DNA of 64,000 nt from Leisingera aquaemixtae (lineage in GTDB: Bacteria > Pseudomonadota > Alphaproteobacteria > Rhodobacterales > Rhodobacteraceae): positions 744,001 through 808,000 of the forward strand of contig NZ_JAHVJQ010000001.1 of NCBI RefSeq assembly GCF_019801145.1. The letters are read 5' to 3'. The notes under the pieces are model-generated. The model saw only the letters and a program-made list of their open reading frames with translations, did not search any database and had not been told where the DNA came from. The translations under genes and the position numbers were made by a program. Below are positions 8,066-11,721 of this stretch, one piece after another; positions within the stretch are counted from its first letter, which is position 1; each line of letters starts with the position of its first letter.

Positions 8066-9757
8066 TTACATTCCCAGCTTGCGGAACACCGCCGGGATCT
8101 GCTCCGGCAGGTCCTCGGCGATCAGGCCGGGGCCGAAGTTCAGCGCGCATTCGACGTGGATATAGGCAGCAGTTTCCGCCGCCTGCATCGGAGTAAACCC
8201 GCGCGCCATCAGCCCGGTGATGAACCCTGCCAGCACGTCGCCTGATCCGGCCGTGGCGAGCCAGGGCGCGGAGCGCTCGTAATGGGCGGAATTGACCGAG
8301 CAGCGCCCGTCCGGTGCGGCGATCACAGTGTCCGGCCCCTTGAACAGCACTACGCAGCCTGCGCGTTTGGCCGCCTCTCGGGTGGCATCCACCTTGGAAT
8401 AGGCAGGGCCGGTGGTTGCGGGAGCGTTCAGTTTCGCGGCCAAGTCCGGGAACAGCTTGGCAAATTCGCCGCCATGCGGGGTGAGCACGCAATTCTCGTG
8501 CAGAAGGTCGAACAGCGCTTCCGGCTTCAGCTCGAACCGGGTGAGCGCGTCGGCGTCCAGCACGGTGGCGCGTTTTTCCTTCAGCACCGCCATCACTACC
8601 GCCTGGGTGTCCGCGCCGCGCCCAAGGCCCGGGCCAAGGCAGACCGCGTTGAAGCGTTCATCCTCCAGCAGTTCGCTGACCCCGTGCGCCCCGTCGATCT
8701 GGCGCAGCATGATCGCGGTCAGATTGGCCGCGTTTTCGAACATCGCCGAGCGCGGCGAGCCGACGGTGACCAGACCAGCCCCGATCCGCAGGGCACCGCG
8801 GGCCGCCAGCCGCGCCGCGCCTGTTTTGCCGTGGCCACCTGAGAGGACGAGGGCGTGGCCGTGGGCGTATTTGTGGTCTTCCCGGTTTTTCGGCAGCGAC
8901 GTTGTCCGCTGGCGGTCATCAACGAGCGTAACAAAACCCTCACCGTCCTTCCCGCCTTCATCCAAACCTGGGAAATCACCATGCCAGGGCCGGATCACAT
9001 TGCCAGTTTTCACCCCGCCCAGCCCAATATCCACGGTTCGCAAGTTCCCGCAGTACGCCGGCCCTTCATCAACGAAATGCCCGATGCGAGGTCTGTGAAA
9101 GGTGACTGTAAGCCAGCTCCAATTACCGCCGTATTCCTGGCAAAGGGCGCGTCCGCTGTTCATGCAAAGGCCTGTCGGCGCATCAACCGCGACCATCCGG
9201 CCAAATGTTCTGCCTTCGGTGTACAGTTTGGTCAGCGGCTCAAGAATGTCGCTGTCCGGCGCACGCGATAACCCGGCACCAAAGATTGCGTCCACGAAAA
9301 GGCGGCCCTCCGCGTTGCCAACGGCGGTTTTGCTCCAGGGCTTCACTGCGCCTGCACCCAATCGCTCGTAATTCGCCTTCGCATCCGGCGGCAGCTTGTC
9401 CGGGTCTCCATAAAGGAACACCTCCACCTCCCAGCCGCGCTCCTTCAAGAGCCGCGCCACCACAAAGCCGTCGCCGCCGTTGTTGCCCGGCCCGCACAGG
9501 ACCACCGCCCGGCGCGGCGTTTCATCTTTCCCCAAATTCTCCGGGGGGCGTTCTTGGTTGCGCCATTGGTCCGAGCGACCAATGGACGACGAGCAGCCGG
9601 CCCCTCGCCCTTCTGCCAGTTCCGGCCACTCCTCGAAGATGGCATCGACCACCCCCTGCCCGGCCCGCTCCATCAGTTCCAGCCCGGTCACCTCGCCGGA
9701 CGTGATGGCGGCCTGTTCGATGGCCCGCATCTGGGCTGCGGTCAGCAGTTCGGTCAT
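8066..9757 (-). CDS. nnr: Bifunctional NAD(P)H-hydrate repair enzyme (epimerase and ADP-dependent dehydratase)
   Basis: Repairs damaged NAD(P)H: the N-terminal YjeF domain epimerises hydrated R/S forms, and the C-terminal domain dehydrates S-NAD(P)HX with ADP. The epimerase shows GPGNNGGDGFVVARLL (residues 89-104), VDAIFGAGL and AVDAPTGL. The dehydratase domain (from about 295) shows SGGHGKTGAARLAARGALR, LGPGLG and TAGSGDVLAGFITGLMARG. At 563 residues it is longer than E. coli Nnr (about 515). Part of the excess is an insertion at residues 51-80, encoded by a DNA palindrome, just before the GPGNNGGDG loop. The gene is on the minus strand, 170 bases upstream of the divergent glnB. Confidence 0.95.
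   Translation of the reverse strand: MTELLTAAQMRAIEQAAITSGEVTGLELMERAGQGVVDAIFEEWPELAEGRGAGCSSSIGRSDQWRNQERPPENLGKDETPRRAVVLCGPGNNGGDGFVVARLLKERGWEVEVFLYGDPDKLPPDAKANYERLGAGAVKPWSKTAVGNAEGRLFVDAIFGAGLSRAPDSDILEPLTKLYTEGRTFGRMVAVDAPTGLCMNSGRALCQEYGGNWSWLTVTFHRPRIGHFVDEGPAYCGNLRTVDIGLGGVKTGNVIRPWHGDFPGLDEGGKDGEGFVTLVDDRQRTTSLPKNREDHKYAHGHALVLSGGHGKTGAARLAARGALRIGAGLVTVGSPRSAMFENAANLTAIMLRQIDGAHGVSELLEDERFNAVCLGPGLGRGADTQAVVMAVLKEKRATVLDADALTRFELKPEALFDLLHENCVLTPHGGEFAKLFPDLAAKLNAPATTGPAYSKVDATREAAKRAGCVVLFKGPDTVIAAPDGRCSVNSAHYERSAPWLATAGSGDVLAGFITGLMARGFTPMQAAETAAYIHVECALNFGPGLIAEDLPEQIPAVFRKLGM
9518..9607. repeat. Palindromic element inserted in frame in the nnr epimerase domain
   Basis: This segment encodes residues 51-80 of Nnr, which have no counterpart in the YjeF_N domain as I know it. 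Its core is a perfect inverted repeat, CCATTGGTC-CGAGC-GACCAATGG (9563-9585). Flanking bases such as CGTCGTC and CCCCCCGGAG do not read like the neighbouring coding DNA. The frame stays open through it. It resembles the palindromic elements that insert in frame in Rickettsia genes, by analogy only. Confidence 0.6.
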
Positions 9758-9895: not shown

Positions 9896-10267
<372 letters not shown>

Positions 10268-10314
10268 CCGAATTCAACGAATATCCTGACATCTAAATCA
10301 GAAGGACCGAGGGA

Positions 10315-11721
10315 ATGAGCGCAGACGCAGTTCTCAAGCAACTCAAAGACGAAGACGTCGCCTATGTCGACATCCGTTTCACCGACGTGCGCGGCAAGCT
10401 GCAGCACGTGACCGTGGACGTGGACCTGGTGGACGAAGACTTCCTGGAAGAAGGCTTCATGTTCGACGGCTCCTCGATCGCCGGCTGGAAGTCGATCGAA
10501 AACTCCGACATGAAACTGATGCCGGACACCACCTCGGCCTATATCGATCCGTTCTACGCCGAGAAAACCCTCTGCATCCATTGCTCCATCGTTGAGCCCG
10601 ACACCGGCGAGAGCTACGAGCGCGACCCGCGCGGCACCGCACAGAAGGCCGAAGCCTACCTGAAATCCTCCGGCATCGGCGACGTCGCCTACATGGGCCC
10701 GGAAGCGGAATTCTTCCTGTTCGACGACGTGCGTTACTCCAACACCATCAACAAGGTGTCTTACGAAGTTGACGCAACCGACGGCTCCTGGAACACCGAC
10801 GCCGAGTTCGAAATGGGCAACATGGGCCACCGCCCGGGCCTGAAGGGCGGCTACTTCCCGGTGAACCCGACCGACGAAGCGCAGGACCTGCGTTCGGAAA
10901 TGCTGTCGACCATGAAGCGCCTGGGCATGAAGGTCGACAAGCACCACCACGAAGTGGCCTCCTGCCAGCACGAGCTGGGCCTGATCTTCGACAGCCTGAC
11001 CAAGCAGGCCGACGAGCTGCAGAAGTACAAATACGTGATCCACAACGTGGCCCACGCCTATGGCAAGTCGGCAACCTTCATGCCGAAGCCGATCTATGGC
11101 GACAACGGCTCCGGCATGCACGTCAACATGTCGATCTGGAAAGACGGCAAGCCGCTGTTTGCAGGCGACAAGTATGCTGACCTCAGCCAGGAAGCGCTGT
11201 ATTTCATCGGCGGCGTCCTGAAGCACGCCAAGACCCTGAACGCCTTCACCAACCCGGGCACCAACTCCTACAAGCGCCTGATCCCGGGCTTCGAGGCTCC
11301 GGTTCTGCGCGCCTACTCCGCCCGCAACCGCTCCGGCTGCGTGCGTATTCCGTGGACCGAAAGCCCGAAAGCCAAGCGCGTCGAGGCCCGCTTCCCCGAT
11401 CCGAGCGCAAACCCCTACCTGTGCTTTGCCGCGCTGCTGATGGCCGGCCTGGACGGCATCAAGAACAAGATCGATCCGGGCGAAGCCATGGACAAGAACC
11501 TGTACGACCTGCCGGCCGAAGAGCTGGAAGGCATCCCGACCGTCTGCGGCTCGCTGCGCGAAGCACTGGACGCGCTGGCGGCCGACCACGACTTCCTGCT
11601 GCAGGGCGACGTGTTCACCAAGGACCAGATCGACGGCTACATCGAGCTGAAGATGGAAGAGGTCCACAAGTACGAGCACACCCCGCACCCGGTGGAATTC
11701 GGCATGTACTACAGCTGCTAA
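10315..11721 (+). CDS. glnA: Glutamine synthetase type I
   Basis: Forms glutamine from glutamate, ammonia and ATP as a cytoplasmic dodecamer, the entry step of ammonium assimilation. The 468-residue chain shows FDGSSIAGW, the Glu/His metal site [20 protein letters not shown], and the adenylylation site Tyr397 in NLYDLPAEE, so the enzyme should be controlled by GlnE and indirectly by P-II. The length equals that of E. coli GlnA. It is co-transcribed with glnB and ends at a strong terminator. Confidence 0.98.

Follow-up and report, generated by a model that had tools for sequence, protein, structure and literature searches.

The window is a stretch of 64,000 nucleotides from Leisingera aquaemixtae. 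It carries on its minus strand nnr, in which Pfam places YjeF_N at residues 27-224 and Carb_kinase at residues 303-541 of the product. The ORFs beside it, at 9929-11721, resemble what we take to be a P-II protein and a glutamine synthetase. A segment situated after the first helices of Nnr and before the GPGNNGGDG loop is made of two dispersed repeats, one nested in the other, since in nnr a hairpin element parts the two halves of an older, terminator-like module. The features are as follows.

8066..9757, minus strand: nnr, the host gene, bifunctional NAD(P)H-hydrate epimerase/dehydratase, 563 aa (ORF and Pfam)
9519..9546, plus strand: left half of the older terminator-like module (GTTTCATCTTTCCCCAAATTCTCCGGGG; matches in the own genome and in the nnr of relatives)
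9547..9591, plus strand: hairpin element, 45 nt here (covariance model, 57.7 bits, E 1.8e-10; outer-stem covariation)
9563..9585, no strand assigned: perfect 9-bp inverted repeat with a 5-nt spacer, formed where the fixed loop pairs with the right arm of the hairpin element (from the sequence)
about 9596..9609, plus strand: right half of the inverted repeat of the older module (GCCGGCCCCTCGCC), joined to the left half at locus L003 of the own genome and in the nnr of relatives

Read from the minus strand, the left module half is translated in frame as approximately residues 71-80 of Nnr, and the hairpin element codes for approximately residues 56-71. As a separate observation, nnr is a mosaic gene within the genus: its N-terminus and dehydratase domain are highly similar, versus a strongly variable middle comprising the late YjeF_N and the linker (approximately residues 130-290, window 8888-9370).

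Structure of the hairpin element

The original prediction described the segment as built on a perfect 9-base inverted repeat. That repeat is present at 9563-9585 (CCATTGGTC-CGAGC-GACCAATGG), yet it accounts for only 23 of the approximately 90 bases, much of the rest being the second, unrelated repeat module. The core pattern CATTGGTC-N5-GACCAATG matched once in the window, with no mismatches (chance expectation 0.25 with a tolerance of 3 mismatches).

Copies of the hairpin element are 41-45 nt long, and those in other genomes share its layout, in which a fixed loop, GCGCCATTGGTCCGAG, is flanked by two arms that vary together. Covariation was evaluated on a hand-trimmed alignment of 32 copies (A1), the structure having been drawn from the same copies. 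In the outer stem, 9 of the 14 pairs were changed on both sides. Such cells numbered 40, whereas shuffling gave 9.2 on average and in none of 500 rounds reached that count, and the covariation score was 0.317, compared with 0.140 or less for all slid versions. The inner 9-bp palindrome, in contrast, was changed on both sides in only 1 of 7 pairs among the 32 copies, no more than in shuffles. The perfect palindrome of the window is thus the fixed loop together with the right arm rather than a conserved structure, and the palindrome proposed earlier as the key structure gives way to the 14-pair outer stem. As RNA, the window segment showed no unusual folding (z -1.29), and a search of Rfam returned one match at chance level (E 4.5). 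Stop-free readings over the six frames amounted to 89% for 233 distinct 44-nt slices of copies, versus 65.5% for shuffled ones, the copies not being independent of one another.

States of the nnr loop among relatives

When positions 9515-9610 were compared by BLAST with the own genome, 46 matches were obtained (E<=10), 35 of which cover only the left part of the module (TTTCATCTTTCCCCAAATTCTCCGGGG); at L003 this left part continues into GAGGGGCCGGCCCCTC. With a crude ORF caller, 28 of the 29 loci L002-L030 were placed between genes (19 in the same direction, 7 convergent and 2 divergent), the sole exception being L028, which matches the right half only. At locus L002, between convergent genes, the hairpin element occurs a second time with a strong score, again enclosed by a module.

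Nnr was found in 37 of the 41 genomes searched, and in 19 of 20 same-genus relatives. The loop of 14 of these 19 genes contains the module in frame and without the hairpin element, giving a peptide like RGAGPSRSPEYLGKDE; the module is absent from the loop in the other five (G013, G007, G014, G006 and G008). The hairpin element was detected in none of the 19, so that the window copy is the only one among the 20 same-genus nnr. Compared with the module-only state, nnr of the window has a net gain of 39 nt and stays in frame; aligned most simply, it has 44 nt where the module-only genes have 5 (GCGCT).

In other genera, the short nnr loops (19 loci read at the DNA level) encode 6-8 aa and have no module. 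Among 31 long loops read at the DNA level, which are part of a long-loop set (one listing alone covers 42 genomes; L420 and L461 were left unparsed), the module was found in one phase in 19, in a second phase in 6 and in no recognisable form in 6, and the hairpin element was seen in none save that of the window. A quick tree of the dehydratase part, poorly resolved (6 of 59 branches well supported), implied at least five changes between the two module phases, and its well-supported branches force at least two for the rarer phase. Given the two phases and these changes, the module entered nnr, or shifted its frame there, more than once. In one of the genes, L442 (G387), three tandem hairpins of the GGGGGG-CAGCCCCCC type stand in frame ahead of the module.

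Of the 7647 proteins matched by Nnr residues 1-130, the best 120 were read, and 19 of them, including this protein (18 of the 119 others), were judged by eye to carry palindrome-like peptides in the loop (11 under a stricter regular expression). Within these best 120, peptides like SSIGRSDQWRNQERP occurred in P0001-P0011, P0028, P0040 and P0049, SPLSLGPMAQQRRPP in P0062, P0088 and P0089, and PSDQWRDNSDPP in P0033 and P0045. The peptides are read in different frames, which makes it likely that insertion took place more than once or that a change of frame was compensated. The earlier statement that the segment has no counterpart in YjeF_N proteins therefore holds against the 19 short-loop genes of other genera, but not against near relatives, 14 of 19 of which have the module, nor against the palindrome-like peptides of these 19 proteins. 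Neither of the two outcomes set beforehand as contrary to a mobile element was encountered: the segment does not belong to the conserved portion of YjeF_N, and its sequence does occur elsewhere.

In an AlphaFold2 model built with 55 Nnr homologues (mean pLDDT 82.8), residues 51-78, corresponding to the insert, scored below 50 and were flanked by a helix (residues 25-43) and a strand (residues 83-88). The insert is thus predicted to be a disordered, floppy loop added to Nnr.

Distribution and insertion sites of the element

A covariance model (R1), whose E-values are rough, was built from A1 and used to search sets of genomes at different thresholds. In the genus, R1 matched 19 of 21 genomes (E<=0.1). 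The own genome contained three places (57.7, 47.9 and 29.0 bits), i.e. two strong copies and one weak copy, from which the element seems hardly active here. In the family, matches were found in 79 of 149 genomes at E<=0.01 and in 64 at E<=1e-4. In a class-wide sample of 240 genomes (E<=1e-4), only the own genome was matched and none of the 239 others; the unmatched genomes include at least two of the family, G246 and G091, the latter weakly matched in the family search. Copy numbers are lower bounds, given that at most 150 candidates per genome were scored in the genus R1 search, 43 in that of the family, 26 in that of the class and 6 in an earlier genome search. An exact pattern was present in at least 120 stretches of named genomes. 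Titles of the 80 stretches listed were recognisable as Rhodobacterales in 76 cases, the other four being a Sphingomonadales MAG, an Acetobacteraceae MAG, Enemella evansiae and a Thiohalocapsa MAG.

The genomic context was characterized, with crude ORF callers, in 60 copies hand-picked from the best matches of nine family genomes: 42 were intergenic, 6 lay over an ORF end and 12 were within an ORF. Eight of these 12 were inspected, of which four had a Pfam domain, always downstream of the element, and four had no Pfam match; no clear insert in a cellular protein other than Nnr was seen among the eight. A G-run adjoins the element in 35 of the 60 copies. The joint motif of G-run plus pyrimidines, a crude test of module context, was present in 13 of 60 copies compared with 3 of 1087 random points, and failed in the other 47. 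By eye, copies in G054, G046 and G184 are mostly placed between the halves of a like module, and those in G101, G135, G152 and G173 within a different repeat. Of the 80 listed loci, 50 had the copy between ORFs, 15 within an ORF and 15 at an ORF edge; the module was recognised by the motif test in 16 loci and not in the other 64.

The element also occurs in transposase genes without the module. Four copies are in frame in transposases identified by Pfam (L166, L318, L333 and L343), the domain match spanning the insert in the last three, and at L304 the reading frame is lost, by eye, past the insert. When filled and empty IS copies were compared, the element replaced approximately 4-5 nt of target with no clear target duplication, and the nnr site is similar. 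The suggestion that loops would be added to several proteins thus applies to Nnr and to transposases, with no other clear cellular case among the in-ORF copies inspected. The presence of the same sequence between genes was confirmed at L002 and in many relatives, and the idea of a mobile palindrome tolerated in a coding gene gains support from the dispersed copies and from the in-frame gain relative to relatives.

These data bear on the possibility that the composite is a functional RNA (a terminator, or a processing or stability site) kept for the nnr transcript, the hairpin being a variable stem and not a separate mobile element. Such a role would fit the position of intergenic module copies near gene ends, the covarying outer stem and the many element copies inside a like module. 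It is nevertheless unlikely, as the element is found without the module in transposase genes and, by eye, within another repeat, the module is missing from nnr in 5 of 19 same-genus genomes and from the 19 short-loop genes elsewhere, and the folding of the window segment is unexceptional.

Hairpin inserts in transposase genes are not restricted to this family. An IS3-type element of the genus (L158, L159, L154, L161, L165 and L198-L202), with an annotated relative in Cereibacter sphaeroides KD131 (L174), has transposase genes interrupted by 1-11 hairpin inserts, which are 37-57 nt long and of three or more kinds. Individual copies had 7 inserts (G019), 7 (G010a), 5 (G013), 3 (G007), 3 (G006), 1 (G011) and 11 (G002a, with a 240-nt deletion), and the copies in G005, G016 and G014 had none, but were deleted or truncated. 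The length was not a multiple of 3 for 4 of 7 inserts in G019 and 9 of 11 in G002a. Among three copies of G010 (L154, L155 and L157), deletions end at hairpin inserts, as if inserts had recombined, and in G007 two identical copies at different sites (L198 and L216) share 15 nt of left flank past the terminal repeat.

It could be argued from this IS that short hairpin inserts of several families, including the present one, are mobile elements skipped during gene expression (by bypass or removal) and therefore tolerated even out of frame. Besides the many frame-breaking inserts, this would agree with the low dN/dS of orfB among six insert-bearing copies (0.043 for G007a-G011 to 0.313 for G013-G010a; 67 synonymous versus 20 nonsynonymous changes for G019a-G013), the coding part of which had no further indels, and with the four IS copies of G019 that are 100% identical (rounded), three of which were read and stand at unrelated sites, no insert-free relative above 67% identity being present among the matches listed. 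If true, the IS of the genus would stay functional despite several frame-breaking transposase inserts, and nnr would offer this system a site at which in-frame landing is tolerated. However, shared inserts are nearly identical in diverged flanks, as would result from homing or gene conversion among IS copies: at sites 1305, 1358, 1460 and 1498 they differ by 0-1 nt and the flanks by 7-18%, and with all shared sites pooled, differences were counted at 65 of 1038 insert positions versus 203 of 2016 flank positions. Moreover, some sites hold different insert variants, dN/dS was near 1 between two copies of one genome (G010a-G010c), and another insert-bearing group (L105/L107/L113/L122/L373) showed no codon bias, the alignments of other IS pairs being too broken by inserts to say much else. 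No frame-breaking copy was seen in the cellular genes inspected, and the nnr copy, being in frame, needs no skipping. We regard skipping as quite improbable; homing or gene conversion into otherwise functional IS lineages explains most of the insert pattern.

Proposed history and relation to known repeats

The best-known cases of palindromic repeats within bacterial proteins come from Rickettsia. What is proposed for nnr is a layered process in a mostly free-living family, in which an intergenic module came to sit in an enzyme loop, in two frames, and then served as the landing place for a second repeat. The segment probably represents a nested pair of dispersed repeats translated within Nnr, an older module having been followed by insertion of the hairpin element into it in this lineage. 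As a first step, the terminator-like hairpin module would have entered the nnr loop in frame; later, the element of 41-45 nt would have landed in it, replacing approximately 5 nt for the net gain of 39 nt. The single insertion originally envisaged is thus modified, the element having landed in a repeat already sitting in nnr. Landing inside a like module would have occurred between genes in other genera as well.

Mobility of the element is inferred from its dispersal and from the empty sites. An activity acting in trans may copy the element and insert it whole, with a preference for particular targets, namely the G-run of the module and some positions in transposase genes, and with the replacement of 4-5 nt but no clear target duplication. 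Persistence in nnr could be explained because the loop is predicted to be disordered and tolerant and because the element seldom brings a stop codon in any frame, so that a benefit to the host would not be required. Y1 transposases were the only class searched for as mobiliser, and none was found to fit: PF01797 was present in 7 of 79 element-positive genomes versus 8 of 70 others (15 of 149 in total), and the own genome had none. Many close species offer filled and empty sites, so that one can measure how often such insertions occur, where they are directed and what they cost the protein. The identity of the mobiliser is likewise a testable question, and the insert-riddled IS offers a second, stranger lead.

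By taxon and size, the nearest relatives of the element are the CGTC-tagged REPs of alphaproteobacteria, small palindromes described as mostly intergenic near 3' ends, with some in genes, for which no dedicated transposase is known either (PMC3733652). That the element is simply an ordinary member of this group is nonetheless highly improbable. Taxon, size and the occurrence of REPs within genes fit (PMC3733652), and the window copy, taken alone, has a 9-bp stem and a 5-nt loop adjoining CGTC. The CGTC REPs described by Di Nocera et al. (2013), however, have an unpaired CGTC tag, a stem of 8-9 bp and a loop of 4-5 nt (PMC3733652), whereas across copies of the element the end resembling CGTC takes part in the outer stem (pairs 4-44, 5-43, 6-41 and 7-40), the covarying stem has 14 pairs with a long loop, and the 9-bp stem does not covary; the features tested thus fail. 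The words Rhodobacter, Ruegeria, Paracoccus and Roseobacter do not appear in the main text of that paper (PMC3733652).

Other systems share single features with the element. GTAG REPs and REPINs, which like it are palindromes scattered over the genome, are presumed to be mobilised in trans by a RAYT (Y1) transposase (PMC3733652); the element, in contrast, showed no association with Y1 transposases. MITEs are short, non-autonomous, dispersed inverted repeats, some of them fused in frame to genes (PMC10969869), but here approximately 4-5 nt are replaced in place of a target duplication, and the loci read contained no parent IS with matching ends, Y1 being the only transposase class searched. The inserts subject to translational bypass in T4 gene 60 and Magnusiomyces mitochondria are short and frame-breaking (PMC5009743), as are those of the IS transposases described above, but the nnr copy is in frame and skipping is putative here.

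A literature search, the coverage of which omits most subscription journals, returned no paper on the element. The closest in logic are the Rickettsia palindromic elements (RPEs), short palindromic repeats placed in frame within protein-coding genes, to which they add a peptide (PMC10969869). As in that case, nnr remains open across the insert. RPEs are, however, approximately 150 bp long and occur in many unrelated genes (PMC10969869), whereas the element measures 41-45 nt and is mostly intergenic, with nnr the only cellular gene, alongside transposase genes, in which it was recognized when 8 of the 12 in-ORF copies were inspected.
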